A DNA stretch of 64,000 nucleotides from Phycisphaeraceae bacterium (GCA_028282805.1 JANQHD010000023.1:248001-312000), one strand, 5' to 3'; numbered from the stretch's first letter, positions 15,304-31,962 are shown. Program-made: numbers and translations. Notes: a model not told the origin generated them from the letters alone.

Positions 15304-17397
15304 ATGAGTCAGGATCAACAGACGTATCAACGTGCCGTCAACGCCTCACTGGTGGGCCTGGCGATCCAATTCCTGGTCGCGCTGGTGCTGATGCTGCTGG
15401 CGTTGAAGCTGGACGGGCAGGTCCTGCTGACCGCCATGTGGTACGCGTTCGGCGGGGTGCTGCTTTGGGTGATACTCGCCATCGTGCACCAGCAGCGCAA
15501 GCTCGAACGCGTCGAGGCGATCGAGGCCGACTCGCTCGCCCAGCGGCACGGCACCGACAGCTCGATCTTCCAGACCTCCGCCGAGGACCTGTCGGTGGCG
15601 CGCCGGCGTTTGCAGCGGCTGGAGAAGTGGGCGCTGCCGATCGTCAGCCTGCTGACCGCTGGCTACCTGATCGGCGTCGGCATCTGGCGGTGGTTCGCGA
15701 ACGTGCGCCTTTTGTCGGCCCGCGACATCGAGAGCGGCAAGCTCGAGCGCGACCCCAGGCTGGTCGAGCTGGCCGGCGAGATGGGCCTCGACCAGCCGGG
15801 CATCGTGCTGGCTTTGCTCATCGGCCTGGCGTTCGTGATGTTCGTGATCAGCCGGTACCTCGCGGGCATGGCGAAGGTCAAGCAGTGGCAGATGCTCCGC
15901 AGCGGCGCGGGGTACCTGATGGGCGTGGCGCTGGTGTCGGTGGTGATCGCGGTGGGCTACGGCCTGTTGCTGCTGCCCACGCCCGTCTCCGCCGTGCTCC
16001 GTTACATGGTGGTCATCGTGCCGGTGATCATGATCCTCATCGGCGCCGAGATATCGCTGAACCTGCTGCTGGACATCTACCGCCCGCGCAAGCCCGGCGA
16101 CCTGCCGCGGCCCGCGTTTGACAGCCGGCTGCTCAGCTTCCTGACCAGCCCCGAGTCCATCGCCCGCTCGATCAACGAGGCGATCAACTACCAGTTCGGT
16201 TTCGAGATCACGCAGAGCTGGTTCTGGCAGCTGTTCACCAAGTCGCTGCCGTCGCTGGTCATCATCTCCGCGGCGGTGCTGTTCGCGCTGTCGTCGCTGG
16301 TGTTCGTCGGCGAGGGCGAGCAGGCCATGATCAGCCGGTTCGGCCGGCTGAGCGCCGAGCCGCTCGGGCCGGGCGTGTACCTCAAGGCGCCCTGGCCGTT
16401 CGCCACGGCGCGCAGTTACCAGGTCGACCGTGTCCAGCAGATCGCCATCGGCAACGACGTCGAGCTCAAGCGCGACACGCCGATCCTCTGGGACAACGAG
16501 CACTACGAGGGCACCGAGCCGCCGCGGGCGTTCATCGTCGCGCCGCGGGCGTCCGACGACGACGAGGCGCAAGCCCCGGGCGCGACCGGCGACGACGCCA
16601 AGGCCGGCAAGGCGCCGTCCGTGGCGCTGGTCAACACCGAGGTGCTGTTGCAGTACCGCATCCGCGACCTGGCCGAGTACCTGACCGAGAACGACGAGCC
16701 GGTCACGCGGCTGGGCACGCTGGGCAACATGGTGCTGTCGCGGTACCTGCTGAGCAAGGACATCGACCAGTGGATCAGCATCTCGCGCAGCGAGGCGACG
16801 GCGCAGCTGCGCGACCGGATCCAGGCGGAGGCCGACGCGGCGAAGCTGGGCATCGAGGTGGTGGAGGTGTCGGTCGCTTCGCTGCACCCGCCGCAGATCG
16901 TCGCCGGCGCGTTCCACGAGGTGGTCAAGGCCGAGCAACAGCGCCAGATCGCCATCGAGCAGGCCAAGGCCGAGGAGATCGCGACCATGGCGAAGGTCGC
17001 CGGCACCACCGAAGAGGCCGAGCGGATCGAATCGATGATCAACCGGGCGCGCACGCGCAGCGGCCGGGCCAAGGCCGAGCTGGAGCTGGAGATCGAGCGG
17101 GCGGTCAGCCAGGCGGGCGGTCAGGCGGCGGAGGTGTTGGCCGCGGCGAAGGCCGACCGCTGGGTTTACGAAAACGGCGAGCGCGCCGCCGTGCTCGAGT
17201 ACCAGCAGGACCTGCTGCCCTACCGGGCCGCCCCGGAGGTTTACAAGTTGCGGGCGCACCTGCAGGCGCTGGCCGACGGCTACGCGAGGGCCCGGCTGTA
17301 CGTCCTGCTGGCCGACCCCGACCGGTTTGTCGTTCGTATGTCACTCAAGTCACTCGGTGCGCAGTTCGGCTCGGTCGGACCGCCCACCTCGGAATAA
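15304..17397 (+). CDS. multi-spanning SPFH/Band 7 protein (HflK-like)
   Basis: This 697-residue protein has an unusual N-terminal half with about seven membrane segments (near 16-37, 44-62, 112-131, 160-180, 198-218, 230-255, 315-337), followed by an SPFH domain (about 335-610). The domain has GEGEQAMISRFGRL, the typical opening of HflK-type proteins, and ends in a helical Ala/Glu/Lys region (QAKAEEIATMAKVAGTTEEA). Ordinary HflK has one membrane helix, so the added membrane block is distinctive. SPFH proteins form ring or cage microdomains that enclose or regulate membrane proteins. AAAGG lies 7 bases before the ATG. It is the first gene of a tight six-gene operon. Confidence 0.85.
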   Translation: MSQDQQTYQRAVNASLVGLAIQFLVALVLMLLALKLDGQVLLTAMWYAFGGVLLWVILAIVHQQRKLERVEAIEADSLAQRHGTDSSIFQTSAEDLSVARRRLQRLEKWALPIVSLLTAGYLIGVGIWRWFANVRLLSARDIESGKLERDPRLVELAGEMGLDQPGIVLALLIGLAFVMFVISRYLAGMAKVKQWQMLRSGAGYLMGVALVSVVIAVGYGLLLLPTPVSAVLRYMVVIVPVIMILIGAEISLNLLLDIYRPRKPGDLPRPAFDSRLLSFLTSPESIARSINEAINYQFGFEITQSWFWQLFTKSLPSLVIISAAVLFALSSLVFVGEGEQAMISRFGRLSAEPLGPGVYLKAPWPFATARSYQVDRVQQIAIGNDVELKRDTPILWDNEHYEGTEPPRAFIVAPRASDDDEAQAPGATGDDAKAGKAPSVALVNTEVLLQYRIRDLAEYLTENDEPVTRLGTLGNMVLSRYLLSKDIDQWISISRSEATAQLRDRIQAEADAAKLGIEVVEVSVASLHPPQIVAGAFHEVVKAEQQRQIAIEQAKAEEIATMAKVAGTTEEAERIESMINRARTRSGRAKAELELEIERAVSQAGGQAAEVLAAAKADRWVYENGERAAVLEYQQDLLPYRAAPEVYKLRAHLQALADGYARARLYVLLADPDRFVVRMSLKSLGAQFGSVGPPTSE

Positions 17398-17428: not shown

Positions 17429-18376
17429 ATGAAAAAGATCACCACGTTCGTCCTCGGGCTGATCATCGCCATGTTCCTGTTGGGGTACATGCTCACCTTC
17501 CAGGTGCCCCACAACATGATCGTGATCAAGACGAGGTTCAACAAGGCCACCGACGAGAACGTCTACCGCGGCGCGGAGGGCACCGACCGGGCGCTGGGCA
17601 ACCTGCACTTCAAGTGGTTCGCCCCGATCGACCGCGTCTACGAGCTGCCCGCGCTGGTGCAGGAGCTCGAGACCCAGCTCGAAGAGCTGCAGATGGCCGA
17701 CAAGAAGGTCGCCGACGTGCAGCTTTTCGTCGCCTGGCAGATCACCGACCCGCTGGCGTTCTTCCGCACGCTCAACAACGAGCGCAACGCCGTCGAGCTG
17801 CTCGGCGTGCGCGTGCGCGACGCCAAGTCGCAGATCACCGAGTTCCGTTTCGATCAGCTGACCAGCCTCAACCCCGGCGAGCTGAAGCTCGCCGACGCCG
17901 AGCGGGCGGTCAAGCAGACGCTCCAGGCTTCGCTCGACGACGACGGCTACGGCATCACCATCCGCTCGGTGGGGATCAAGCGGCTGATGGTGCCGGACGA
18001 CGTGGCCCAGACCGTGCACGAGCAGATGCGCGCCACGCGTCAGCGCCTGGCGGCGATCAAGACCGAGGAGGGCGTGGCCCGCGCTTCGATGATCAAGTCC
18101 AACGCCGAGTCGGTCGCCCGCGAGATACTCAGCTTCGCCAACGAGCGCGCCTCGGAGATCCGCGGCAAGGGCAACGTGGCGGTCGCCGAGGAGATCGCCA
18201 AGGTCACCAAGGACCCCGAGTTCATGCAGTTCCTCTTGAAGCTGCGCGCCCTCGAGCAGATGCTCGAGAAGCAGCCGACCATCTTCGCCGACCCGCGCAT
18301 GGTGCCGTTCGACCTGTTCCCCCAGATGTACGAGCGGGAGCTGGCGCCCGTCACGCCCGCCGAGCCGATCGACTGA
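17429..18376 (+). CDS. SPFH protein, HflC-like
   Basis: This 315-residue protein has one N-terminal membrane anchor (residues 5-25, TFVLGLIIAMFLLGYMLTFQV) and an HflC-type SPFH domain with VPHNMIVIKTRF, then a helical region (ARASMIKSNAESVAREILSFANERASEIRGKGN). The size matches HflC. The charged stretch at its C-terminus is short. It follows the first SPFH gene by 31 bases. In other bacteria HflK and HflC form a hetero-oligomeric cage around FtsH. No ftsH gene lies in this operon, so the client here may instead be the ABC transporter encoded downstream. Confidence 0.85.
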   Translation: MKKITTFVLGLIIAMFLLGYMLTFQVPHNMIVIKTRFNKATDENVYRGAEGTDRALGNLHFKWFAPIDRVYELPALVQELETQLEELQMADKKVADVQLFVAWQITDPLAFFRTLNNERNAVELLGVRVRDAKSQITEFRFDQLTSLNPGELKLADAERAVKQTLQASLDDDGYGITIRSVGIKRLMVPDDVAQTVHEQMRATRQRLAAIKTEEGVARASMIKSNAESVAREILSFANERASEIRGKGNVAVAEEIAKVTKDPEFMQFLLKLRALEQMLEKQPTIFADPRMVPFDLFPQMYERELAPVTPAEPID

Positions 18377-18409: not shown

Positions 18410-19789
18410 ATGACAGACCACGAACACGATCACGACCACACGCACGGCCATGACCATGACCACGGTCACGACCACGGCCACGACGACCCGTTCCACGTCC
18501 ACCCGACCAAGGAACTGGATATCGACGACATGGACCCGGCCAACCGCTCGCTCGCCGAGGCGCTGCGGATCAGCTTCGGCCTGCTCAAGTGGCTCGTCAT
18601 CCTGCTCGTGGTGGTCTTCCTCTCCTACGGCAGCTACAACGAGATCAAGGAGGGCGAGGTCGGCATCAAGCTCCGCTTCGGCGCCATCGTCGGCGACCGG
18701 CTGGACACCGGCGTGCACCTGGCCTGGCCCGAGCCGATCGAGAAGATCGTCGTCGTGCCCACCGGCGTGCGGACCGTCGAGCTCAACGAGGCGTTCATGT
18801 TCTCGATGAAGGACGCGGAAGCCACGCTGAACTACTCCGAGAAGTCGGTCATGACCGATTACCCGAAGATCGGGCGCGACCGCTACCTGCTGACCGGCGA
18901 CCGGAACATCGTGCACGGCGTGTGGAAGGTCTCGTTCAGGATCGACCCGTCGCAGATCAGGAAGTTCGCCATCAACGTCGGCTCGACCGACCAGAACGAA
19001 TCGCTCAGACGCACTCACTCGCTGGTCCGCCAGGCGGCGGAACGCGCCATCCTGCACGTGGTGGCGCAGACTTCCGTGGAAGATTTCGTGCAGTCCCAGG
19101 CGACGGGCAGCGCATCGGACAAGAAGAGCGCCGGGCAGATCCAACGGCTCACCCAACAGATGCTCGACGAGTTGAACACGGGGATCACGGTCAGCGAGGT
19201 CAGCAACGAGGCCTACCTGGTGCGGCCGATGAGCTTGCAGACGGCGTTCAAGAGCGTCTCCGCGGCCGAGTCGGCCAAGAAGAAAGACATCGAGAACGCG
19301 CTGAAGGACAAGTCCGACATCATGCTCAAGGCGGCGGGCGAGGGCTACCCCAAGCTGCTGGCGGTGATCCGCGCGTACCAGGCGGCGCGGGCGCTGGACG
19401 ACCGGGCCGGCGCGGCCGAGGCCAAGGCCCAGCTCAACGCGATGCTGACCGACAAGGCCTCCATGACCGCCCACGGCATCGGCGGCGAGGTCTACCGGGT
19501 GATCCGCGAGGCCCAGGCCGACCAGACCAACCTCGTGCGCCGCGCCGCGGCCGACCTCCGCGAGTTCGAGGCCTACTACGCCCAGTTCGGCGACGACCCG
19601 CAGCTGCGACGCATCACCATGCAGCGCCTGTGGTACAACACGCTCAACCGCGTCTTCGAGAAGGACCACGAGTTCTACCGCCTGCCGGGCGGCGACGCGA
19701 GGTACTACATCGAGGTCGGGCCCAACACCGAGAAGGAATCGGAAGAAGAAGCCGAGAGGCGCGCCAGGCGCATCGGGGAGGCGGGTTAA
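18410..19789 (+). CDS. SPFH protein, HflK-like, with a His-rich N-terminal tail
   Basis: This 459-residue protein starts with a striking cytoplasmic tail: 13 His residues in the first 31 (alternating His-Asp/Gly). A membrane anchor follows (about 60-80, WLVILLVVVFLSYGSY), then an HflK-type SPFH domain opening with IKEGEVGIKLRFG. The domain has a longer insert than HflC (MTDYPKIGRDRYLLTGDRN) and the late helical region ends in a charged tail. His-Asp repeats usually bind Zn or Ni. The gene overlaps the ABC ATPase unit closely (3-base gap). It probably pairs with the HflC-like protein just upstream. Confidence 0.85.
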   Translation: MTDHEHDHDHTHGHDHDHGHDHGHDDPFHVHPTKELDIDDMDPANRSLAEALRISFGLLKWLVILLVVVFLSYGSYNEIKEGEVGIKLRFGAIVGDRLDTGVHLAWPEPIEKIVVVPTGVRTVELNEAFMFSMKDAEATLNYSEKSVMTDYPKIGRDRYLLTGDRNIVHGVWKVSFRIDPSQIRKFAINVGSTDQNESLRRTHSLVRQAAERAILHVVAQTSVEDFVQSQATGSASDKKSAGQIQRLTQQMLDELNTGITVSEVSNEAYLVRPMSLQTAFKSVSAAESAKKKDIENALKDKSDIMLKAAGEGYPKLLAVIRAYQAARALDDRAGAAEAKAQLNAMLTDKASMTAHGIGGEVYRVIREAQADQTNLVRRAAADLREFEAYYAQFGDDPQLRRITMQRLWYNTLNRVFEKDHEFYRLPGGDARYYIEVGPNTEKESEEEAERRARRIGEAG

Positions 19790-19792
19790 ACC

Positions 19793-20971
19793 ATGGTCAC
19801 AGAGGCGCTACCCGTGATCGAGGCGTTCGGCCTGACCAAGGTCTTCAAGGACTTCTGGATGCGGCCGCGCATCACCGCGGTCGACACCCTCGACCTGCGC
19901 GTCGTGCCGCAGCAGGTGTTCGGCCTGCTCGGGCCCAACGGCTCGGGCAAGAGCACCACCATCAAGATGCTGCTCGGCCTGCTGTTCCCCACACGCGGCA
20001 AGGTCTCCGTCTTCGGCAAGCTGCCCACCGAGGTCGCCACCAAGCAACGCATCGGCTACCTGCCCGAAGAGACCTACCTCTACCGCTACCTCAACGCCCG
20101 CGAGACGCTCGACTACTACGGCCGCATCTTCCACCTCGACCGCCACACGCGCAACAAACGCATCGACATGCTGCTCGAGATGGTCGGCCTCGACAGCGTG
20201 CAGCGCCGCGTCGTCGGCGAGTATTCCAAGGGCATGCAACGCCGCATCGGCCTGGCGCAGGCGCTGATCAACGACCCCGAGCTGCTCATCCTCGACGAGC
20301 CGACGTCCGGCCTCGACCCGATCGGCACCAAGCAGATCAAGGACCTGATCCTGCACCTGCGGGAACGCGGCAAGACCGTGCTGCTGTCCAGCCACCTGCT
20401 GGCCGACGTCGAGGACGTCTGCGACCGGGTGACGATCCTCTACGGCGGCAGGAAGCGCGCCGAGGGCACGTGCGACGAGCTGCTGGCGATCGAGGGCACG
20501 CGCATGATCGAGACCGACGAGCTGCGCCCCGAGACGATCGCGAAGATCGAGAAACTGATCCAGGACGAAGAGGGCAAGGCGATCCGCAAGGTCGAACAGC
20601 CCCGGCAGAAGCTGGAGACGCTGTTCCTGAACATCGTGCACGAGGCGCAGGCCGAGGGCCTGGCCACCGGCGGCGCGAAGGCCGGCGGGGCGGTCGCCGA
20701 GTTCCTCGCACGCGATGCGCACATGCCCGAGGCGGTCGACGGCGGCGCGCTGATCGACCAACTGGTGACCGTCGACCAGCAGCAGGCCGCCCGCCCGCCC
20801 CTGCCCGACGAGGCGAAAGCCGAGCCCGTCGCCCCGGCCGGCCCCGACGGCTCGGTGCTCGATTCGCTGACCCGCAGCGAGCCGGTGGCCCCGGCGCAAG
20901 ACGAGGCCGACCCGCCGGCCGACAAGAAGAAAACCGACGTCGACAGCACGGTCATCGACGACCTGCTGTAA
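19793..20971 (+). CDS. ABC transporter ATP-binding protein
   Basis: This 392-residue protein has a complete nucleotide-binding domain: Walker A GPNGSGKST (47-55), signature YSKGMQ (144-149), Walker B LLILDEPTSGLDP (164-176) and the switch His in LLSSHLL. This is the ABC-2 exporter subtype (GPNGSGKST, SGLDP). Residues about 240-392 form an acidic C-terminal extension that ordinary members lack. GGGAGG precedes the ATG. It is three bases after the SPFH gene and 31 before the permease at 21003, so the three are surely co-expressed. Confidence 0.93.
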   Translation: MVTEALPVIEAFGLTKVFKDFWMRPRITAVDTLDLRVVPQQVFGLLGPNGSGKSTTIKMLLGLLFPTRGKVSVFGKLPTEVATKQRIGYLPEETYLYRYLNARETLDYYGRIFHLDRHTRNKRIDMLLEMVGLDSVQRRVVGEYSKGMQRRIGLAQALINDPELLILDEPTSGLDPIGTKQIKDLILHLRERGKTVLLSSHLLADVEDVCDRVTILYGGRKRAEGTCDELLAIEGTRMIETDELRPETIAKIEKLIQDEEGKAIRKVEQPRQKLETLFLNIVHEAQAEGLATGGAKAGGAVAEFLARDAHMPEAVDGGALIDQLVTVDQQQAARPPLPDEAKAEPVAPAGPDGSVLDSLTRSEPVAPAQDEADPPADKKKTDVDSTVIDDLL

Positions 20972-21002: not shown

Positions 21003-22787
21003 ATGACCTACAACGAACTGCTCATCCTCGGCCTGCTTATCCATCTGGCGATCGGTGTGTGGTGTTACCGCGTCGCCGCCCGCAAGGAACGTGACGGCGT
21101 GTTGTGGTTCATCCTCGGCGCCATGTTCAGCGTGTTCGCGCTGGCCGCGGTGTACCTGGTCGCCGACCAGAAGTCACGCGGGGGCAGGGGCAAGACGCAG
21201 ACCGCCCACCGGTGGTTGTGGCGCGGCTTGGCGATGCTGCCCGCGCTGGTCGGGCTGATCATCGATTTCAGCCTGCGCGGTTTTCCCACCAAGGCGGCGA
21301 CCGGCCTGGCGCTGTTCGCCGGGGTGTTGGCGGTGTACCTGCTTGGCTTGGCGCTGATCAACCTGATCCTCAGCGCGCCGTGGGCGCCGCTGTCGGTGGC
21401 GCGGACGCTGATCGACGAGGCGATGGCCTACCGCGTGCTGGTGGGGGTCGTCGGCGTGATCTTCCTCGGCGTCGTCGCGTGCCCGCTGCTGCTCAACCCC
21501 GAGCAACCGCTCAGCTACCGCGTGCAGATGAACCTGTCGTTCTCGCTGCTGTGGGTATCGCTCTGGCTGGTGATCCTGACCATCGTGCTGTCGTGTTGGA
21601 CGCTGTCCAGCGAGGTCGACAAGAGCCATGTCTTCATCACGCTGACCAAGCCGATCGGCCGGGGCGCCTTCCTGATGGGCAAGTGGCTGGGCATCGTGAT
21701 GCTCAACGCGCTGCTGCTGGCGGTCTCGGGGAGCGTGATCTTCGCCTCGACGAAGCTGTACCTGGCGCAGCAGCAGCGCACCATCTACGACGAGATCGTG
21801 ATCAACGAGCAGGTGCTCACCGCGCGGGTGCCGATCGAGCCGGTCCCGCCGGACGGCCTCGACCGCGCGGTCGAGCAGCGCTACGAAGCGCGGTTGCGAG
21901 AGAAGGGCGAGGACTTCATCGCCGGGCGTGGCGGCCCGGAGAAGTTCAAGGAGGAGATCCGCCAGCAGTTGCTCGGCGGCTGGATGAGCCTCGGGCCGCC
22001 GCCGCCGATCGGCGGCGCGAGCTTCCGCCAGGAGTACGTGTTCGACGGCCTCAGCGCCGTCGGCAACGCCAGCCGGACCTTGCAGGTGCAGTACAAGATC
22101 CGCGGCACCATCCAGAGCGACGTGGCCCGCTTGAACTGGTACGTGTTCGACGCCGACAGCAACCGCTACATCCTGATCAGCGAGAAGCCACGCGCGGTGG
22201 GCATCGAGGCGCCGCTCGACACGAACCTGACGCTGCTGGTGCCGATCGAGGGCATCGACAAGAACGGGCGGCTCGAGCTGCGGGTCGAGAACGTCACGCC
22301 CGGCAACTCCACCGTCAAGTTCGTCGGCGACGACGGGCTGCTGCTGTACTACAAGGTCGGCAGCTTCGGGGGTAACTTCGTGCGGGCGTTGATGGTGACC
22401 TGGATCAAGCTCGCGTTCGCCGCGGCGGTGGGGCTGGCGTTCTCGGCGTTCCTCGGGTTCCCCGTGGCGGTGCTGTGCACGGCGTTGGTTTACATCGTGG
22501 CCGACAATTCCGGTTACGTGATCAGTGCGGCGTACTGGTACCCGCGCGAGGGCGCGGGCAGGCACCCGGTCAAGCAGTTCATCTCGTGGATCGGCTACGG
22601 CTTCACGTGGCTGTTCAGGTTGTTCGGCGACATGCAGCAGAACAAGCGGCTGGTCGACGGGCAGTACATCTCGTGGCGCGAGATGGGCACGCTGGTGTTC
22701 TTCGTGGGCGTTTTCTACACCGGCTTCGCGGCCTTGCTGGGCTGGCTCGTGTTCAACCGGCGTGAACTGGCCCGGGTGCAGGTCTAG
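21003..22787 (+). CDS. ABC-2 type transporter permease with a large extracytoplasmic domain
   Basis: This 594-residue protein has about five N-terminal membrane segments (near 5-22, 38-56, 75-92, 98-120, 140-165) and two more at 180-200 and 225-245. A soluble domain spans about 250-450. Three membrane segments follow (about 462-485, 490-510, 560-585). The block SSEVDKSHVFITLTKPIGR marks the ABC-2 family. The soluble domain is beta-rich (RTLQVQYKIRGTIQSD, RLELRVENVTPGNSTVKF), so it may reach into the periplasm. It partners the ATPase just upstream. The substrate is unknown. Confidence 0.88.
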   Translation: MTYNELLILGLLIHLAIGVWCYRVAARKERDGVLWFILGAMFSVFALAAVYLVADQKSRGGRGKTQTAHRWLWRGLAMLPALVGLIIDFSLRGFPTKAATGLALFAGVLAVYLLGLALINLILSAPWAPLSVARTLIDEAMAYRVLVGVVGVIFLGVVACPLLLNPEQPLSYRVQMNLSFSLLWVSLWLVILTIVLSCWTLSSEVDKSHVFITLTKPIGRGAFLMGKWLGIVMLNALLLAVSGSVIFASTKLYLAQQQRTIYDEIVINEQVLTARVPIEPVPPDGLDRAVEQRYEARLREKGEDFIAGRGGPEKFKEEIRQQLLGGWMSLGPPPPIGGASFRQEYVFDGLSAVGNASRTLQVQYKIRGTIQSDVARLNWYVFDADSNRYILISEKPRAVGIEAPLDTNLTLLVPIEGIDKNGRLELRVENVTPGNSTVKFVGDDGLLLYYKVGSFGGNFVRALMVTWIKLAFAAAVGLAFSAFLGFPVAVLCTALVYIVADNSGYVISAAYWYPREGAGRHPVKQFISWIGYGFTWLFRLFGDMQQNKRLVDGQYISWREMGTLVFFVGVFYTGFAALLGWLVFNRRELARVQV

Positions 22788-22798
22788 GATGAAACGGC

Positions 22799-25198
22799 AT
22801 GCGCGGTAGAAACTTTATCATCCTCATCTTGGCGGGCTCGATCGCGTTCGCGGCGTTGGCCGGCAGCGCGTTCATGAACCAACGCCTCGACCAGGAGCGC
22901 GTCAGGCTCCAGCTGACCTTCAACGCCGACGTCCAGGCGAACCTCCCGCCGGACGTGGCGCTGATGGTGTCGATGTTCGGCTGCTTCCGCGGGCTGATGA
23001 TCGACTTCCTCTGGCAGAAGGCCAACAAGCTCAAGGAAGAGAACAAGGTCTACGCCGCCAAGGACCTGTCCGACCTGATCACCAAGCTGCAGCCGCGCTT
23101 CAAGGAGGTGTGGGTCTTCCACTCGTGGAACATGGCCTACAACATCTCCGTGATGACCAAGACCCAGCGCGAGCGCTGGATGTGGGTGAACAACGGCATC
23201 GAGCTGTTGCGCGACCACGGCGTGGTCTACAACCCCGACTCGGTGGCGATCCACAAGCAGCTGGCGTGGACGTTCATCCACAAGATCGGCCGGATCAGCG
23301 ACGACATGCACTGGTACTACAAGTCCAGGCTGGCCGAGGAATGGCAGGGCGTGCTCGGCCCGCCGCCGCCGCTGATCAAGGTCAACCAGCACAACCTGTC
23401 GGGCGAGCCGGTGCTCGACGAAAAGGGCAACCCGCTCCAGCGCTGGGCGATCATCGAAGCGTTTGCGCCGATCGCGCACATGGACCAGCTGTTCTTCTCG
23501 CGCGACGAGCTGAACCGCGACGTGCGGCGCGGCCTGGGCGAGCTGATCAAACGCCGCGCCGCCGAGATGAGCCGGCTCAGCGTCGAGCCCGCCAAAGACC
23601 CCGTGCTCCGCGACGCGATGCCGATGATGTACCTCCGGCCGACGCTGTTCAGCGTCGAGGCGGCCGACCGGCTCCGGCGCTGGCCCAAGGAAGACGAGGC
23701 CTACACGCTCGAGATGCAGCGGTTGGTCGAGCTCAACGAGGCGCACCTGGCGCTGACCGAAGCCGGCCGCGACGACCCCGACGCGGCTTTCCTCGCCCGG
23801 TTCCCCGAGGCCGCGCCGCAGGTCGCCGCTCTGCGCGAGCGCGGCCACGACCTCGATTACCCGACGCTGATGCGCCTCGCCGAGGCGAGCCGGATCATCG
23901 CCATCGAAGCGATGGGCTATTCTTACAAAGCCGCGAGCGACGACGGCACGGGCCTCGGCTTCTTCATGCAATGGCTGCGCGGCGGCGACGCCGAGGCGGC
24001 GCGCGTGCGCGGCCGGTTGATCCTGCCGTACCTGCGGGCGAAGGTGATCCGCACGCACTACCACATGTCGCCGTCGTACATGTTCGAGTTGATGGAGGGC
24101 GAGTGGCTGGTGCAGGAAGACCAGCCGCTGACCAAGACCCGCGACGAGTCGACGGTGCTGCCGCTGCCGATCGACTGGCGTCACCCCGCGGCGCACGGGT
24201 TGTACTGGTCGTCGCGCGGCGTGTGGGCCGCCAAGAGCCGCCTGCACCGCTCCGACAGCTACTACCAGGAGGTGCTCAACACCTACCGCCTGGTCTGCCA
24301 CTCGATGCAGGCGCTGATGCACAACGGCCGCGTCAGCTACGACCCGCTTTCGCATTATTACGATCAGATGCCGCACATGGAGTTCGTCGAGGGTTACCTG
24401 CGCGTGTTCTACGGCTCGGGCGAGTCGATCGGCGGCATGTGGACCGAGTCCGCCGCGCCCGAGAGCTACAAGTCCGGCCACCGCTTCTTCCTCGAGTGGG
24501 CCGTGCGCGCGTACTTCGAGCAGGGTTACACGAACAAGGCCGAGGAGTTCTACGACGAGCTCGGCCGCACTTACGGGCCGACCGCCCCGGAGCTGGCGCA
24601 AGAGTACAGCCAGCCGTTGTCGGTGTTCGCGTTCGCCGAGAACGTGGAGGAGCAGGGCGTCGACAACCCGAGCAAGGCGCGACGCGCGATCTACTCACGG
24701 TTGGTCGAGGCGTTCCGCTGGGCCTACGGCTACGACAGACCCGGGATCGCCAACATCCACGCCGCCCGCGCCCAACAGATCTATATCACCTACCAGGCCG
24801 AGTTCAACAAGGCCACCGCCAACACCTACCAATCCCGCCTCGGCTTGCCCCACTGGGAGCAGGTGATCAGCAACTCGTTGTTGGATTTCATGCTCCACCC
24901 GTCGCCCAAGTACCCGATGGCGCTGCGGCAGCGTGTCTGGTACGCCATCGGCAACGACCCGAAGAACGCCTGGCGCCGCAACGCCGTGTGGGACCGGCTC
25001 CGGGGCCCGCTCTACCGGCTGTCCGAGCTCAACCCCCACCCCACGCTGACCACCGCCCAGCGATTCCCCGAGCCGCCGGGCATGGACGAGTGGCGCAAGA
25101 GCCAGCAGGCCGAGGGCCGGGCCGAGGACATCAGAAAAACCGGCAAAGCCGCGGACCAATACGACAACGGCCAACGTCCTTCTGGTCAGGGCCAGTGA
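22799..25198 (+). CDS. large membrane-anchored helical-repeat protein of the SPFH-ABC operon
   Basis: The 799-residue product has one N-terminal membrane anchor (about residues 5-22). The remainder is helical and rich in Trp/Tyr with TPR-like helix pairs (for example RFKEVWVFHSWNMAYNIS, near residue 100). A repeated amphipathic pattern continues to about residue 720 and a polar tail ends it. No catalytic motif was seen. It begins 11 bases after the permease, so it is the last gene of the operon. Its likely place is the periplasmic side of the inner membrane, as an adaptor for the exporter. No named family is recognised. Confidence 0.8.
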   Translation: MRGRNFIILILAGSIAFAALAGSAFMNQRLDQERVRLQLTFNADVQANLPPDVALMVSMFGCFRGLMIDFLWQKANKLKEENKVYAAKDLSDLITKLQPRFKEVWVFHSWNMAYNISVMTKTQRERWMWVNNGIELLRDHGVVYNPDSVAIHKQLAWTFIHKIGRISDDMHWYYKSRLAEEWQGVLGPPPPLIKVNQHNLSGEPVLDEKGNPLQRWAIIEAFAPIAHMDQLFFSRDELNRDVRRGLGELIKRRAAEMSRLSVEPAKDPVLRDAMPMMYLRPTLFSVEAADRLRRWPKEDEAYTLEMQRLVELNEAHLALTEAGRDDPDAAFLARFPEAAPQVAALRERGHDLDYPTLMRLAEASRIIAIEAMGYSYKAASDDGTGLGFFMQWLRGGDAEAARVRGRLILPYLRAKVIRTHYHMSPSYMFELMEGEWLVQEDQPLTKTRDESTVLPLPIDWRHPAAHGLYWSSRGVWAAKSRLHRSDSYYQEVLNTYRLVCHSMQALMHNGRVSYDPLSHYYDQMPHMEFVEGYLRVFYGSGESIGGMWTESAAPESYKSGHRFFLEWAVRAYFEQGYTNKAEEFYDELGRTYGPTAPELAQEYSQPLSVFAFAENVEEQGVDNPSKARRAIYSRLVEAFRWAYGYDRPGIANIHAARAQQIYITYQAEFNKATANTYQSRLGLPHWEQVISNSLLDFMLHPSPKYPMALRQRVWYAIGNDPKNAWRRNAVWDRLRGPLYRLSELNPHPTLTTAQRFPEPPGMDEWRKSQQAEGRAEDIRKTGKAADQYDNGQRPSGQGQ

Positions 25199-25278: not shown

Positions 25279-26262
25279 ATGTGGTTGATGCGTCTAAGTG
25301 ATCATGCAACGCGCCACGTCGCACGCGACGACGCGCACGACCATCACTTCGATCATCACGATCACGTCAGCGAAACCACCCGCAGGTCCCTGTCCTGGTT
25401 GATCAGCCTCCTGTTCCACGCCGGCCTCGTCGTCATCGCCCTGTTCATCATCTGGTCCGATGCGCTCGTCGCCGACGAGGACGAAGACCTCGTCGTGCCC
25501 GAGACCAAGTTCATCAACGACATCCCCACCGAGCTGTTCGTGCCCATCCAGCAGACGCAGCTCGAAGCCACCACCGACATCCCGCGCGAGATCGAAACCC
25601 AGACCGTCACCAAGGGCGACCCGCTCAGCGAGCTGACCCTCGAGACCGAGGCCGACCTGTCGCAGATCGGCGTGGCCGGGTCCAAGCCCCTGCCGCTCGG
25701 CGCGAAGATCGGCGACGACGACATGGGCGTGGGCATCTTCGGCCTCGGCGGCAACGCGCGCAAGATCGTCTACGTCATCGACACGTCCGGCTCGATGGCC
25801 GACCTGTTCACCGAGGTGAAAGCCGAATTGAAAGAGTCGGTCAACCGCCTCGTCGATGAACAGAGCTTCACCATCATCCTCTTCCAGCAGAGCAAGGCGA
25901 TCGAGGTCGACCAGCCCTCGCGCGGGCTCAAGGCCGCGACCGCCAAGCACAGGGAGATCGCGCTCAACTGGATCGACAACCCCGACAACGCCTACCCCGG
26001 CGGCAAGACCAACCCGATCGAAGCCATCGAGCTGGCGCTGCGCTACGAGCCGGACCTGATCTTTATCCTCTCGGACAACATCCGCGGCGAGGGCCAGTAC
26101 GAGATCGACAAGAACGACCTGCTCAAACGCATCCGCGACGCCAAGGGCGGCGGCAAGACACGCATCAACACCATCGAGTTCGGCGACGAAGCCGACAAGC
26201 TCGCGACCATGGAAACGATCGCCAGGCAGCACGGCGGTCGCTTCGTATTCAAGAGGAAGTAA
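25279..26262 (+). CDS. membrane-anchored von Willebrand A protein with His-rich tail
   Basis: This 327-residue protein has a cytoplasmic tail with eight His within residues 9-29, one membrane helix (about 38-59), an acidic Thr/Glu-rich linker (about 60-135) and a vWA domain. The metal-ion-dependent adhesion site is complete: DTSGS (168-172), Thr in GGKTN, and Asp in ILSDN. The topology puts the vWA domain in the periplasm. The linker, and the presence of Exb genes downstream, resemble a TonB-like layout with the vWA domain in place of the TonB C-domain. GGAGG 7 bases upstream fixes the start. It heads a six-gene operon. Confidence 0.88.
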   Translation: MWLMRLSDHATRHVARDDAHDHHFDHHDHVSETTRRSLSWLISLLFHAGLVVIALFIIWSDALVADEDEDLVVPETKFINDIPTELFVPIQQTQLEATTDIPREIETQTVTKGDPLSELTLETEADLSQIGVAGSKPLPLGAKIGDDDMGVGIFGLGGNARKIVYVIDTSGSMADLFTEVKAELKESVNRLVDEQSFTIILFQQSKAIEVDQPSRGLKAATAKHREIALNWIDNPDNAYPGGKTNPIEAIELALRYEPDLIFILSDNIRGEGQYEIDKNDLLKRIRDAKGGGKTRINTIEFGDEADKLATMETIARQHGGRFVFKRK

Positions 26263-26281
26263 GATCACCAGGGCCGACGGC

Positions 26282-27325
26282 ATGCAACCACACACCACGC
26301 TCACGCTGACCGCCCTCGCGGCGCTGCTCGCGCTCGCCCCCGCGTCGCGCGCCGACGTGATCCGCGTGGGCAACATCGACCGCACCGTCGCCATCACCGA
26401 CATCCGCGACGGGCTGGTGTTGTACCGCGCCCGCGGCGCCGAGCGCGAGGCGGCGCTCGACACCATCACGTCGATCCAGCTCACGAAGTACCCCGCGTTC
26501 GCGAAGGCCGTGGCGAAGACCGGCGCCGAGCCCGCCCAGGCCGCCGATGAGCTGGGCAAGCTGCTCAAGTCGGTACGCGAGCCGTACCTCAAGCCGTTGA
26601 TCCTCATCCGGCGTGCCGAGGCGCTCGACCGCGCGGGCCGGTTTGTCGAAGCCTTGAACGACTATGCCGCCGCGCTGGCGCTCGACGACAGCGCGTATTA
26701 CATCGATCGCGCGCCGAGCCGGCTGCCGGCCGACGCCGCGCGGCGCGCCGCGGCGCGTAAGGCCGTCGAACGCCTGCTCACCGAGCAAGACAGCCCCGCC
26801 GTGACCGAACGGCTGAGGGCGTTGTTGGCGGAGTTCGACCAAGCGCCCGCCGAGAAGCCGCAAGCGCAGACCACCGAACCCGAGCCCAAGCCCAAGCCCG
26901 AACCCAAGGCCGACGACGCCGGACAGGCCCCGCGGCTTGAGGAGATCGAGGGCTACAGCAAGTCAACGCAACAACAGATCGCCAACTTGGTGGCGGCGAA
27001 GAAGTACCCGCAGGCGGTGGCGCGGATCGACCGGGCCATTGCCGCGCCCAAAGCGCCGCTGGCCGACCTGTACTACCAGCGCGGTTTGGCGCAGGCGGCG
27101 ATGAAACAGGACGCGCCCGCGGCGCTGTCGTTCCTGCGCACCGCCTCGCTGTTCCCCGAGCACAAGCTCGCCGACGACGCGCTGTTCCAGGCCGGCGCCG
27201 CGCTCGAACGCGCCGGCAAGGGCGACATCGCCCGGCGGGTGTGGGCCATCGGGTTGCGGCGCACCAAGGACCCGGCCCTGGCCGCGAAGTTTCGATCGAT
27301 GCTCGAACCGACCCCGGTGCCATGA
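26282..27325 (+). CDS. secreted tetratricopeptide-like protein
   Basis: This 347-residue protein has a signal peptide (LTLTALAALLALAPASRA, cut before DVIRVG). A small beta region (about 25-65) is followed by helical repeats with TPR spacing (LILIRRAEALDRAGRFVEAL, and PLADLYYQRGLAQAAMKQD). A Pro/Glu/Lys linker (about 195-220) divides two helical-repeat blocks. It would act as a periplasmic scaffold. It lies 19 bases after the vWA gene and 35 before the channel gene. Confidence 0.75.
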   Translation: MQPHTTLTLTALAALLALAPASRADVIRVGNIDRTVAITDIRDGLVLYRARGAEREAALDTITSIQLTKYPAFAKAVAKTGAEPAQAADELGKLLKSVREPYLKPLILIRRAEALDRAGRFVEALNDYAAALALDDSAYYIDRAPSRLPADAARRAAARKAVERLLTEQDSPAVTERLRALLAEFDQAPAEKPQAQTTEPEPKPKPEPKADDAGQAPRLEEIEGYSKSTQQQIANLVAAKKYPQAVARIDRAIAAPKAPLADLYYQRGLAQAAMKQDAPAALSFLRTASLFPEHKLADDALFQAGAALERAGKGDIARRVWAIGLRRTKDPALAAKFRSMLEPTPVP

Positions 27326-27360
27326 CGCCGTGCGGGTCGCACGCACGCGAAGGAGGACCC

Positions 27361-28179
27361 ATGCACTTGGCCAATCGATTCCCGTTCACCGCCTGGCTGC
27401 CCACCGGCGCGCTGCTGGCCGCCGCGCCCGCCGCGTTCGCCGAGGAGGCGGCCAAGGCCGACGCCGGCGGCAGTGGCGGCATCAGCTTCTTCGAAATGTT
27501 CTTCTGGTCGCCGGGCAACATCCTCGGCTCGATCATGATCATGTTCCTCGTGCTCATGTCGATCGTGACCGTGGCGCTGATCATCCTCTTCGCGCTGCGC
27601 AACCGGCGGTTCGAGATCGTGCCCGAATACGCGGTGGAAGAGGTCGAGCAGCTGCTGGAAAAAAAACAGTTCCGCGAGGCGATCGAACTGGCCGAGGAAG
27701 ACGCGTCGGTGTTCGGTGAGGTCATGCACGCGGCGCTGAGCGAGGCGTCCAACGGTTTCGGCGCGATGGAGCGCGCCATCGAAGAGACCGGCGACCTGGC
27801 GCTGACCCAACGCATCCGCTCGCTCGAACTACTCAACGTCTTCGGCGCCGTCGGGCCCATGCTCGGGCTGTTCGGCACGGTGTACGGCATGATCGTCGCG
27901 TTCTACAAGCTCTCCGAGGCCGGCGGCAGCGTCGACCCGCAACTGCTGGCCGGCGGCATCTCCACGGCGCTGGTCACCACGCTGTGGGGGCTGATCGTCG
28001 GCATCCCCGCCGTCGCGGCCGCGGCGCTGATCCGCAGCCGTGTCGAAGCGCTGGTCACCGAGACCATGGCCGAGGCCGACGCCATGCTCAACCGTTTCCG
28101 GCCCAGCGCCGCCCCGGCCAAGAAGCCCGCGGCCAAACCCAAGGCCACGCAGGAGCAAGAGGCGGAGGACGAAGCGTAA
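27361..28179 (+). CDS. MotA/TolQ/ExbB-type proton channel protein
   Basis: The start at 27361 was chosen because AAGGAGG lies 6 bases before this ATG; the open frame runs 120 bases further upstream. The 272-residue product has a signal-like N-terminus (residues 8-27), a first membrane helix (about 50-77), a cytoplasmic helical domain and two more helices (about 155-185 and 200-225). The blocks VFGAVGPMLGLFGTVYGMI and GGISTALVTTLWGLIVGIP are the signature of ExbB/TolQ. It forms the stator ring through which protons pass, with ExbD/TolR. Two ExbD genes follow. Confidence 0.92.
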   Translation: MHLANRFPFTAWLPTGALLAAAPAAFAEEAAKADAGGSGGISFFEMFFWSPGNILGSIMIMFLVLMSIVTVALIILFALRNRRFEIVPEYAVEEVEQLLEKKQFREAIELAEEDASVFGEVMHAALSEASNGFGAMERAIEETGDLALTQRIRSLELLNVFGAVGPMLGLFGTVYGMIVAFYKLSEAGGSVDPQLLAGGISTALVTTLWGLIVGIPAVAAAALIRSRVEALVTETMAEADAMLNRFRPSAAPAKKPAAKPKATQEQEAEDEA

Positions 28180-28182
28180 GCC

Positions 28183-28671
28183 ATGGCCCGCCTGCGACAC
28201 CGACAGTCCGCCAGCGTCGAGCTGAACCTGACGTCCATGATGGACGTGGTGTTCCTGTTGATCATCTTCTTCATCCTCGTGACCAACTTCGCGACCGCCG
28301 ACCTGCCGCCGATGCAGCCGGCCGAGCCCAGGCCGAGCAAGGCCACGGACGACGAACGGCCGTACGCGCGCATCGTCAACGTCGTGCCCGTGGTCGAAAC
28401 CCTGCCCGACGGCGAGACCAAGACGCTGCGCACCGCGGACCACGTGCTGTTGCTCGGCCAGAAGTACCCGCTGAACGAGGTCGGCATCAAGGCGTTGACG
28501 GCGCGCCTCAAGCGGATCAAGCAAACGCTGCCGGACTTGGAGATCGACCTGCGCGCCGACCGCGCGCTGGCCAACGACCAGGTCGAGCCGGTGATGAAGG
28601 CCATCACCGCCGCGGGCATCTCGCGGATCAACATCGTGGCGCTGATGAACCGTGACGGTGAGCAGGAGTAG
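28183..28671 (+). CDS. exbD: ExbD/TolR family protein, first copy
   Basis: This 162-residue protein has one N-terminal membrane helix (LTSMMDVVFLLIIFFILVTNF, about 16-36) with the essential Asp at 21. A periplasmic domain follows, with the usual helix-strand fold at the C-terminus (ITAAGISRINIVALMN). It begins 3 bases after the channel gene. In the family the Asp is the proton carrier. The tandem with a second ExbD suggests a heteromeric stator. Confidence 0.92.
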   Translation: MARLRHRQSASVELNLTSMMDVVFLLIIFFILVTNFATADLPPMQPAEPRPSKATDDERPYARIVNVVPVVETLPDGETKTLRTADHVLLLGQKYPLNEVGIKALTARLKRIKQTLPDLEIDLRADRALANDQVEPVMKAITAAGISRINIVALMNRDGEQE

Positions 28672-28682
28672 GGCGGCGACGG

Positions 28683-29228
28683 ATGAGCGAGATCAAGCAC
28701 CAACACGCCGACCCCGCCGACCTGGCCCACGTCCGGGCGACGGAGACCGTGCACCACCGGCGGCACGGCCGGCGCCCGCAGCGCGGCGTGCGCCAGCTGA
28801 ACCTGACCAGCATGCTCGACGTGTGTTTCCAGTTGCTGATCTTCTTTATCCTCACCGCCAATTTCGCGATGAACGAGGGCGTGCTGCCGGCCGACCTGCC
28901 GCAGGGCAACCCGCCCGACCCCGTCGACGTGCCGCCGCCCGAAGAGCCGTTGAAGATCGTGCTCTTGCCCGCCGGCGGGGACGGCGAGGGCGTGTCCGTT
29001 TGGCTCGAATCCGTCGAGATCAAGGAGCCCGAGCCCCTTGATACGTTGTACCTCAGGTTGAAAACCATGCGGTGGGACGAGAAGACCAACCCCACCGGCA
29101 CCTACGAAGCGGACAACCCGATCCTCATCAAGCCCGAGGGCGAGGTGCGGTGGGGGCACGTCGTGGGCGCGTTCAACGCGGTGTTGCGCGCCAAGTACAC
29201 CAACGTCAGTTTCGCCCCCGCCGGGTAG
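28683..29228 (+). CDS. exbD: ExbD/TolR family protein, second copy
   Basis: This 181-residue protein has a longer His/Arg-rich cytoplasmic tail (residues 1-38, with HHRRHGRR), one membrane helix (about 41-62) and the essential Asp at 46 in LNLTSMLDVCFQ. The periplasmic domain is compact, with the family's terminal strand (GHVVGAFNAVLRAKYTNVSF). It begins 11 bases after the first ExbD. The two copies differ strongly in sequence, so they are not recent duplicates. Confidence 0.9.
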   Translation: MSEIKHQHADPADLAHVRATETVHHRRHGRRPQRGVRQLNLTSMLDVCFQLLIFFILTANFAMNEGVLPADLPQGNPPDPVDVPPPEEPLKIVLLPAGGDGEGVSVWLESVEIKEPEPLDTLYLRLKTMRWDEKTNPTGTYEADNPILIKPEGEVRWGHVVGAFNAVLRAKYTNVSFAPAG

Positions 29229-29244
29229 CCAATCGCGGAGCGTT

Positions 29245-31962
29245 ATGTTCGTCCACCGAATCGCCATCAGCCTGTTGCTCGCCGTTGTGCCGGTCGCTTT
29301 TGCCGCGGCGGCGGACAAGCCCGTCGAACCGCAGCGCCCGACCGACGCCGACTTTTACGGCGCGCTGGCCGCGATGGGGCTCGACGGCGCGGTCGAGCTC
29401 GCGGCCGAGCAGCCCGTGGACGACGCCGACGAGGCCGTGGCCCGGCGCGACGCGCTGGCCGCGGGCTACCTCGCGGCGTTGCGCAACGACCCGGCGCGCT
29501 GGCGGCGCGGCCTGGGCATGGTGACCGGCCTGCACCGCCGGTTGCTCGACCACGTTGACCACGACACCGACTGGCGCCGGCCGCTGTGGTCGACCGACCT
29601 GGCGCAGCAGCTGCTGGTCAACGCCTTGCACGACCGCGACATGGCCGGCACGTTCGCGGTGCTGGGTTACGCCTCGCCCGGCCAGCGCGACGCGGTGGAC
29701 CGTGTGGCGTCGGCGTCGGCGGACCTGCTGCTCGAAGCCGAGGACGACTACTTCCGCCTCAAAACCTCGCTCGGCCGGCGCGCCGACTTCAACGCGCAAT
29801 ACGTGAACACCGGCAAGTGGCAACAGGTGCGCGATTACGCCGACCGCAACATCCCGTTCTACCGCGCGTGGGCGGCGGTGTACCTGTGCACCCAGCCGGA
29901 CGACGGGCCATATTTCAAGGGCAAGAACGCCAAGGCCGAGCGCAAGCGGTTGCTCGCCGCGGCCGCGAACGACGCCGAGGCGCTGATCGACGCGGCCAAC
30001 GCCTCGCAGATCAGCAACGACGCCAAGGCGCGCTTCCGCCTCGTCGCCGCGCTGATCGAGGCGCAGCGCGGCCAGCACGCCCAGGCCCAGGCCCACGTCG
30101 ACGCGGCGCTCAAGCTCGACAAGGTCACCGACCTGACCACGTTTCAGCTCAGGCTCGCCCGCGCCAAGGCGTTGCACCTGGCCGGCAAGGACAAGCCCGC
30201 CGCGCAAGTGCTCGACGCGCTGATGAAAGAGCCGTTCGTCACCGGCCACCCGCTGCACATGGTGCTCGTCGCCGACCGGCGTTTCGCGATGCAGATCGAA
30301 GCGACGGAGTCGATGAAGAACAAGAATTGGCGGCAGAAGAAGGTCGCCGAGTCGTTCGCGGTTTACGAGCGTTTGTTGAAGCACCCGAAGATGAAGCCGT
30401 GGGCCGACGCGGTCGAGCCGTACGTCGCCTCGCGTTACGCCGTGCAGGTCCCCGCGGGCTTTGACGCGGGCGCGATGCCGGCGAACGTGCGGCTGGCGCA
30501 GGTCAAGCAAGCCTTCAACCGCGCCGAGCGCAGCCGGCTCGACGGCAAGGGTGACAAGGGCAGGTCGGACTACGCCTCGGCCGCACGCCTGTCGGGCGCG
30601 CTGTTGGCGGGCAAGGACCTCGACCGCGACCAGCGCGCCGAGGCGATGTTCCTGCACGGCCTGTCGCAGCTGCGCGGCGGGCAGGCGGGGCTCGCGGCTA
30701 AGGCGTTGACCGACATGGCCGAGCAGTTCCCCGAGCGTGTCGAGGGCGAGCAGGCCATGCGCATCGCGCTGCTCAGCGTGACCGGGCCGCTCTACCGCCA
30801 GTCGCCCGACAACCCCGCCGTGCAACAGCTGCACGAGCGCGCGATGGGCGTACTGTTCGCCAAGTACCCGGGCATCGACCTGGCGAAGCTGACCCGCTAC
30901 GACTACGCGGCCTTCCTCCGCCAGTGCCAGCGCTACGACGAGGCGGTCAAGGCCTACGGCCGCGTCAAGCGCGACCACCCGGCGTACGCCGAGTCGCTGT
31001 ACGAGAAGGCCGCGTGCCTCGGCGCGCTGTGGGACGCATCACGCAGCAACGACCGGGCGCAGGCGGCGGTCAAGGCGGTCGATGTTTTCGTTGCCGAGTC
31101 GGGCAAGGCGATGCGCAAACGCACCGGCGAGCGCGCCGAACTGCTCAAGCGGCACACGGCCTCGGCGATGTTGCTCAAGGCGACCGTGCTGATCGAGGGC
31201 CTCGATCAACCGGACGCGGCGCTGAAGGTCGTTGACCTGGTCGAGAAGCGTTACCCGTCGCTCGGCGACTTGAAGCTGCGCATCGGCTCGCTGCGCATCC
31301 GCGTCTACCAGAAGCTCGGCGAGTACGCCAAGGCGGACAAGGCGCTGGCCGACGTGATGCGGGTCGACCCGGCGCGCGGCGGGCCGTTGGCGCTGAGCGT
31401 GTTGCAGTCGCTCAACGGCGAGATCCGCGAGCTGGCCAGGCGGCCGGGCGCCTCGGCGCAGCTGGACGAGCGCGTGGAGATCGCCGTGCGCCTGGCCGAC
31501 AAGGTTGTGCTGCCGTGGGCGCAACGGCAGGCGCAGTTCGAGCCGGAGCAAAAGCTGGCGTTTGCGCTGATGCCCGCCGAGGCGTTGCGTTCGGCCGGCC
31601 GACACAAGGCGGCGCTGGCGCGTTTCGAGAAGATGTCGCAGGCTTACGGCGAGATCGCCCACAAGAACCTGGACGTCGTCACCGGCTCGGCCGAGTGTTT
31701 GTACGAGTTGAAGCGATACGACGACGCCCGCAAGCACTACACCACGCTGATCCGTTACGCGCAATCGAACGACAAGTACGACGCGACGTTCTGGCTGGCG
31801 CAGGCGCGCTGGTACCAGATGTGGGACGCGTCGCTGGCGGGCAAGGCCGACGCCCGCTTCTACCGGGCGGTGGACCGCCTGATCAAGCGTTACGGCGCCA
31901 CGCCGCCGCCCGAGCCGCACCGCTCGACGCTGTTCAAGTTGCGCGACAAGCATCGGCCTTGA
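29245..31962 (+). CDS. large secreted TPR protein of the Exb operon
   Basis: This 905-residue protein has a signal peptide (ISLLLAVVPVAFAAA, residues 7-22). The rest is built from helix pairs typical of tetratricopeptide repeats. Good TPR-like units occur near residues 230-330, 430-520, 550-600 and 640-760 (for example YDYAAFLRQCQRYDEAVKAY). It would be a periplasmic scaffold. It is 16 bases after the second ExbD gene and closes the operon. No enzyme motif was seen. Together with the smaller TPR protein it may connect the Exb motor to an outer-membrane or cell-wall partner. Confidence 0.82.
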   Translation: MFVHRIAISLLLAVVPVAFAAAADKPVEPQRPTDADFYGALAAMGLDGAVELAAEQPVDDADEAVARRDALAAGYLAALRNDPARWRRGLGMVTGLHRRLLDHVDHDTDWRRPLWSTDLAQQLLVNALHDRDMAGTFAVLGYASPGQRDAVDRVASASADLLLEAEDDYFRLKTSLGRRADFNAQYVNTGKWQQVRDYADRNIPFYRAWAAVYLCTQPDDGPYFKGKNAKAERKRLLAAAANDAEALIDAANASQISNDAKARFRLVAALIEAQRGQHAQAQAHVDAALKLDKVTDLTTFQLRLARAKALHLAGKDKPAAQVLDALMKEPFVTGHPLHMVLVADRRFAMQIEATESMKNKNWRQKKVAESFAVYERLLKHPKMKPWADAVEPYVASRYAVQVPAGFDAGAMPANVRLAQVKQAFNRAERSRLDGKGDKGRSDYASAARLSGALLAGKDLDRDQRAEAMFLHGLSQLRGGQAGLAAKALTDMAEQFPERVEGEQAMRIALLSVTGPLYRQSPDNPAVQQLHERAMGVLFAKYPGIDLAKLTRYDYAAFLRQCQRYDEAVKAYGRVKRDHPAYAESLYEKAACLGALWDASRSNDRAQAAVKAVDVFVAESGKAMRKRTGERAELLKRHTASAMLLKATVLIEGLDQPDAALKVVDLVEKRYPSLGDLKLRIGSLRIRVYQKLGEYAKADKALADVMRVDPARGGPLALSVLQSLNGEIRELARRPGASAQLDERVEIAVRLADKVVLPWAQRQAQFEPEQKLAFALMPAEALRSAGRHKAALARFEKMSQAYGEIAHKNLDVVTGSAECLYELKRYDDARKHYTTLIRYAQSNDKYDATFWLAQARWYQMWDASLAGKADARFYRAVDRLIKRYGATPPPEPHRSTLFKLRDKHRP

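Follow-up and report, generated by a model that had tools for sequence, protein, structure and literature searches.

A candidate proton-driven force transducer with a von Willebrand factor A domain in a planctomycete genome

We analyzed a 64,000-nucleotide stretch of DNA from a Phycisphaeraceae bacterium (GCA_028282805.1, JANQHD010000023.1:248001-312000; G000:C52:248001-312000 in our numbering), hereafter the window, whose host is a planctomycete with a genome of 3.9 Mb. The subject is a group of six genes at positions 25279-31962 of the + strand, which encode, in this order, a protein with a von Willebrand factor A (vWA) domain, a first tetratricopeptide repeat (TPR) protein, an ExbB-like channel, two ExbD proteins, and a second TPR protein, with intergenic gaps of 3 to 35 bp. 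The original prediction, made from the sequence alone, had placed a vWA protein, a channel, two ExbDs, and a 905-residue TPR protein at these coordinates, and both the gene order and the Pfam matches agree with it. The genes are as follows (aa, amino acids), and the number of related clusters containing each TPR protein is included.

25279..26262, + strand: putative vWA force transducer, 327 aa (Pfam VWA_3, 6.6e-9; AlphaFold2; homologues)
26282..27325, + strand: TPR1, secreted TPR protein, 347 aa (Pfam TPR; present in 30/42 clusters)
27361..28179, + strand: ExbB/TolQ-like proton channel, 272 aa (Pfam MotA_ExbB, 2.6e-26)
28183..28671, + strand: ExbD1, 162 aa, membrane Asp in LTSMMDVVF (Pfam ExbD; 1.8e-16 and 3.8e-14 for the two ExbDs)
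28683..29228, + strand: ExbD2, 181 aa, membrane Asp in LTSMLDVCF (Pfam ExbD)
29245..31962, + strand: TPR2, secreted TPR protein, 905 aa (Pfam TPR; present in 35/42 clusters)

A search with the vWA protein recovered the same module outside the genus. Clusters were defined in the retrieved regions by calling genes and running profile searches (loci L061, L069, L085, L088, and L089 were not used), and the arrangement vWA-(TPR1)-ExbB-ExbD-ExbD-(TPR2) was present in 42 clusters from several families with mostly unrelated flanking genes, a number that includes the host genome's own paralogue, which has a different gene order. Synteny in other planctomycetes, which the original prediction had proposed as a check, was thus found in these clusters and in 13 further ones, as well as in several named genomes. 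The record of Planctomycetales bacterium ZRK34 (L132, genome G211) likewise contains the cluster. A chance adjacency of the vWA and ExbB genes was ruled out because it recurs amid unrelated flanking genes.

The vWA protein has a cytoplasmic N terminus, a transmembrane helix at approximately residues 31 to 64, a disordered linker of about 85 residues (approximately 65 to 148), and a vWA domain at residues 150 to 327. This corresponds to the TonB-like topology that had been proposed for it, and the AlphaFold2 model, a single-chain model built on 43 aligned homologues, shows the same helix, linker, and domain. The mean predicted local distance difference test score of the domain is ~87 to 97 per ten residues from residue 161 onward, and a Foldseek search matched its fold to the inter-alpha-inhibitor heavy chain and to other vWA domains. 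Pfam identifies only the vWA domain in this protein, and a TonB_C or TolA C-terminal domain was not found in it. A complete metal ion-dependent adhesion site (MIDAS) had also been claimed, and all of its residues are present (DTSGS at positions 168 to 172, T244, and D266). Asp168, Ser170, and Ser172 are invariant in the alignment of the 43 homologues, so that the DxSxS motif of the MIDAS is invariant, while position 244 is Ser or Thr in 39 and position 266 is Asp in 35 of them.

The transmembrane helix, with the sequence LSWLISLLFHAGLVVIALFIIW, contains a feature that the original prediction had not mentioned, namely, a Ser-x3-His motif formed by Ser43 and His47.

25402..25419, + strand: codons of the docking motif (ISLLFH); S43 starts at 25405 and H47 occupies 25417-25419

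His47 is invariant in 43/43 homologues, and Ser43 is kept in 39, the other 4 having Ala. The helix His is found in all 49 vWA proteins of the clusters, in 48 of them by pattern and in the remaining one (L077) with an upstream start. The Ser-x3-His motif was found at the helix of 0 of the 295 other single-transmembrane proteins of the same loci; the six pattern matches in this screen are vWA proteins of L116-L128. With respect to the longer SHLS pattern (Ser-x3-His-x6-Leu-x3-Ser), the window protein has the Ser and the His, with Ala and Ile at the Leu and last-Ser positions, where relatives have mostly Ala and Val or Thr. In cryo-electron microscopy of TonB-ExbBD from Escherichia coli (PMC12215075), the TonB residues Ser16 and His20 were seen to touch Ser34 and Trp38 of ExbB, and Trp38 is in turn in contact with Pro190. 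Judged by sequence, Ser43 and His47 appear to be the equivalent of TonB Ser16 and His20, and the vWA protein would accordingly be a TonB-type force transducer. Tandem vWA genes occur at L038, L039, L067, L078, L081, L090, and L092, and a tree with weak support at many forks suggests that this duplication arose several times.

In the window ExbB, the pore threonines are T173 and T207, and the docking positions are S67 (E. coli ExbB Ser34) and P216 (Pro190). HMMER aligns its segment LMSIVTV to LASIVTW of a solved ExbB, which makes Ser67 the equivalent of Ser34 and Val71 the equivalent of Trp38. Among 60 ExbBs of the cluster type, the Ser67 position is Ser in 59 (the remaining one has a gap), Pro216 and both pore threonines are kept in all 60, and the Trp38 position is Ile, Val, Met, or Leu in 56. 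In the host genome, the ExbBs of its own TonB cluster have Ala at the Ser67 position, and their TonB lacks the Ser-x3-His motif. A free ExbB on contig C47 also carries the docking Ser, which is therefore not exclusive to vWA motors.

Both ExbDs of the window keep the membrane Asp, and 85 of 87 ExbDs carry an N-terminal transmembrane Asp by pattern; the two that were missed have FMDL (L084) and a mis-called or truncated start (L100). In a tree of these 87 sequences, a branch with a support of 99/95 separates the first ExbD, in 42/42 clusters, from all second and third ExbDs, and the ExbDs of the host genome's own paralogue (L059) fall on the same two sides. The pair is thus ancient, and since ExbD1 and ExbD2 form two ancient clades, the axle of the motor is probably a heterodimer. 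The third ExbD found in L038, L067, and L081, loci with doubled vWA genes, derives from the second ExbD according to the tree. L111 also has a third ExbD, the doubled vWA genes of that genome being located on a different contig (L076).

At the level of the order, the pattern that the original prediction had named as contrary to its reading, namely, a TonB or TolA gene co-conserved with the channel and a vWA gene missing in relatives, was not what we found. The ExbB profile matched in 200/201 genomes, as did the vWA profile, the latter number being an upper bound for the transducer as this profile also matches vWA proteins without a motor, whereas TonB_C was present in 65/201 and undetected in 136/201. 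The module is also present in small genomes of ~2 Mb (G283, G334, and G340). A vWA gene lies within 5 kb of ExbB in at least 92 of the best 120 ExbB matches. Re-checking 20 of the 28 remaining matches revealed that vWA adjoins ExbB in 13; 3 others are short contigs that end, and L111 and the loci L113-L115 of family f83 are, or appear to be, split operons. Both halves of such operons stay in the genome (L111/L076 and L113/L103). A clade with the channel and without the vWA gene was ruled out, as the re-checked exceptions have vWA, contig ends, or split operons. In family f83 (L113, L114, and L115), ExbB-ExbD-ExbD adjoins mutL, and the vWA-TPR1 pair is located elsewhere in at least one genome (L103). 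Conversely, L046, L047, L048, L050, L051, and L063 have a vWA gene without a recognized ExbB within ~9 kb and may encode orphan transducers, most of which have the Ser-x3-His transmembrane helix; L046 is without the pattern.

TonB as the real partner of the channel was ruled out, since none of the clusters was found to contain a TonB gene and TonB occurs in only 65/201 genomes. The host genome itself has two genes for true TonB proteins, on contigs C53 and C37 (L060 and L107), with receptor-like genes nearby. The one on C37 (L107:1015-1764) has a SIGLH helix and lies directly 3' of an open reading frame resembling a TonB-dependent receptor. Since this TonB, on a contig other than that of the window, has the Ser-x3-His motif and no ExbB beside it, one might suppose that the ExbB/ExbD motor of the window serves a genomic TonB and that the vWA gene is a mere neighbor. 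We consider this extremely improbable: nearly all of the genomes in which TonB is undetected have this ExbB and vWA, and the free ExbB on C47 provides a channel with the docking Ser.

Force transducers with a vWA domain and an SHLS helix have already been described, including in Planctomycetes, with their function given as unknown (Williams-Jones et al. 2025, PMC12204202, Fig. 4a,b). The synteny reported for the Planctomycetes-Verrucomicrobia-Chlamydiae group joins tolQ and two tolRs to a TPR gene, the vWA gene being "often downstream" of TPR-tolQ-tolR-tolR, and in AlphaFold3 models of homologues the vWA helix docks via the His at the same site of the channel (PMC12204202). The window shares with this class the Ser-x3-His helix, the disordered linker followed by a vWA C-terminal domain, and the synteny with TPR, tolQ-like, and two tolR-like genes. 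The claim that the vWA domain replaces the C-terminal domain of TonB is well backed by the motif, the ExbB docking Ser, the synteny, and the topology; it is not new, having been published for this class. Unlike in the order stated there, the vWA gene of the window precedes the others and the motor has a TPR gene on either side, an arrangement that may also be contained in a figure of that article. The paralogue L059:3256-10459 (G000:C50), which likewise has ExbB, two ExbDs, and vWA (helix SLFVH), is arranged as HEAT-TPR-ExbB-ExbD-ExbD-vWA and matches the published order. The same article describes TPH-vWA proteins, in which vWA is found beside TolQ and an Asp-bearing pore helix replaces ExbD (Fig. 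4c,d); the window also has vWA next to a TolQ-type gene, but with two ExbDs and a helix with the docking His. To the class as described there, the present analysis adds (i) the order-wide prevalence together with the absence of TolB, (ii) the two ExbD lineages and the changed docking Trp, and (iii) the second TPR protein, the vWA-first order, the tandem vWAs, the third ExbD in some relatives, and a family-specific upstream SPFH-ABC block (see below).

The conserved motifs, the co-conservation, the synteny, and the monomer folds of the vWA protein and TPR1 lead us to propose, with a probability of roughly 0.82, that the cluster encodes a vWA-class, trans-envelope force transducer driven by the proton motive force; this figure covers the motor-coupled transducer and not its output. 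ExbB would form a pentameric channel around a heterodimeric axle of ExbD1 and ExbD2, each contributing one proton-binding Asp at which proton flow would move the axle. The vWA helix may dock outside ExbB via Ser43 and His47 against Ser67, like TonB and TolA, and the flexible linker would transmit the motor movement, presumably a rotation, to the vWA domain. There, metal-dependent binding of a periplasmic or outer membrane partner by the MIDAS is most likely, and TPR1 and TPR2 are likely periplasmic partners or adaptors. Compared with TonB-ExbBD and TolA-TolQR of E. coli, the motor architecture, the Ser/His docking motif, and the docking Ser and Pro of the channel are shared, whereas the window has a vWA domain in place of the C-terminal domain, two distinct ExbDs, and no Trp38. 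Conservation singles out His47 of the transducer, Ser67 of the channel, and Asp168 of the MIDAS as key residues, and the two fixed ExbD lineages are a natural case for the question of symmetry at the axle of 5:2 motors.

As to the output, we tentatively favor an envelope maintenance resembling that of Tol-Pal over adhesion, gliding, or import, because the module is nearly universal and TolB is absent; this is a possibility rather than a probability. The TolB_N domain (PF04052) was not found in the host genome and was found in 0/151 genomes of the order, and in the phylum it gave weak matches in 7/199. Pal, an OmpA-like lipoprotein, is not encoded in the cluster; OmpA domains are encoded at three places in the host genome, none of them on the contig of the window. 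TPR1 is predicted to fold into a small beta-barrel (residues 25 to 66) followed by TPR helices; its C-terminal TPR is similar to that of the Tol-Pal partner YbgF/CpoB, with a family score far below the cutoff. Searching with the fold yielded nothing beyond generic TPR matches, of which that to YbgF was the tightest; TPR folds are generic. The following points weigh against our interpretation. The absence of TolB_N is no proof of a missing Tol-like function, as the TolB sequence may be too divergent for the profile to recognize, and TPR1 or TPR2 is absent in some lineages (L093-L095, L099, L100, and L105), so neither is strictly required. In a more specific form, which we put forward with considerable reserve, the vWA motor would be a functional substitute of Tol-Pal in an order without detectable TolB: powered by protons and dependent on the MIDAS, it would grip the outer membrane or the cell wall and drive envelope constriction through an obligate ExbD1-ExbD2 heterodimer. 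Such a motor would be a strong candidate for energizing and holding the outer membrane in bacteria without Tol-Pal.

The original prediction had proposed an adhesion or binding step as the envelope output, which is a guess. A related alternative is an adhesion or gliding machine, in which the motor presents or moves the vWA domain, by analogy with Myxococcus, where AglRQS powers both the Glt complex and CglB, a vWA adhesin. There, the TonB-like GltG is the transducer of the Glt complex and CglB is a separate vWA surface adhesin, whereas the vWA protein of the window is itself an inner membrane protein with the helix. In its composition, the Myxococcus system is similar: AglRQS combines two TolR-like proteins with a single TolQ-like one, and a TonB-like protein as well as several exported TPR proteins belong to the Glt complex (PMC3169522). 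Gliding was also raised as a possible role in PMC12204202. Partners of the Glt type (GltG/GltJ and the outer membrane barrel) were not recognized in the clusters, for which Glt profiles were not run, and the near-universal presence of the module in the order, down to genomes of ~2 Mb, fits a housekeeping role better. We consider adhesion or gliding unlikely. Nutrient import, with the vWA domain contacting outer membrane receptors in the manner of TonB, would agree with the TonB/TolA-like helix and channel; it is very unlikely, given that no TonB-dependent receptor was recognized in the clusters and that the genome's two true TonB proteins are encoded near receptor-like genes.

Directly 5' of the module, and on the same strand, lies a block of further genes.

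15352-17397, 17429-18376, and 18410-19789, + strand: three SPFH/Band 7 genes, just 5' of the ABC genes
19793..20971, + strand: ABC ATPase, linked only in the family of the window
21003..22787, + strand: ABC-2-type permease, linked only in the family of the window
22799..25198, + strand: "TPR0" (a working name only), 799 aa, one N-terminal hydrophobic stretch, without a Pfam match; same place in L038, L067, L068, L078, L083, and L094

The block is separated from the vWA gene by 80 bp in the window and occupies this position in 7 of the 8 family loci with enough contig (the window, L038, L067, L068, L078, L083, and L094, but not L086). It could therefore be a client that forms, together with the motor and the vWA protein, one envelope export or remodeling machine. 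This is quite unlikely, since in other families of the order the block does not adjoin the module, which stands alone, and the linkage of TPR0 is limited to the family of the window. The SPFH-ABC gene order is identical in L067 and L094 and at least partial in the other family loci with the block. At the paralogous locus L059, the motor genes are followed by genes for a solute-binding protein, a permease-like protein, and an ABC ATPase.
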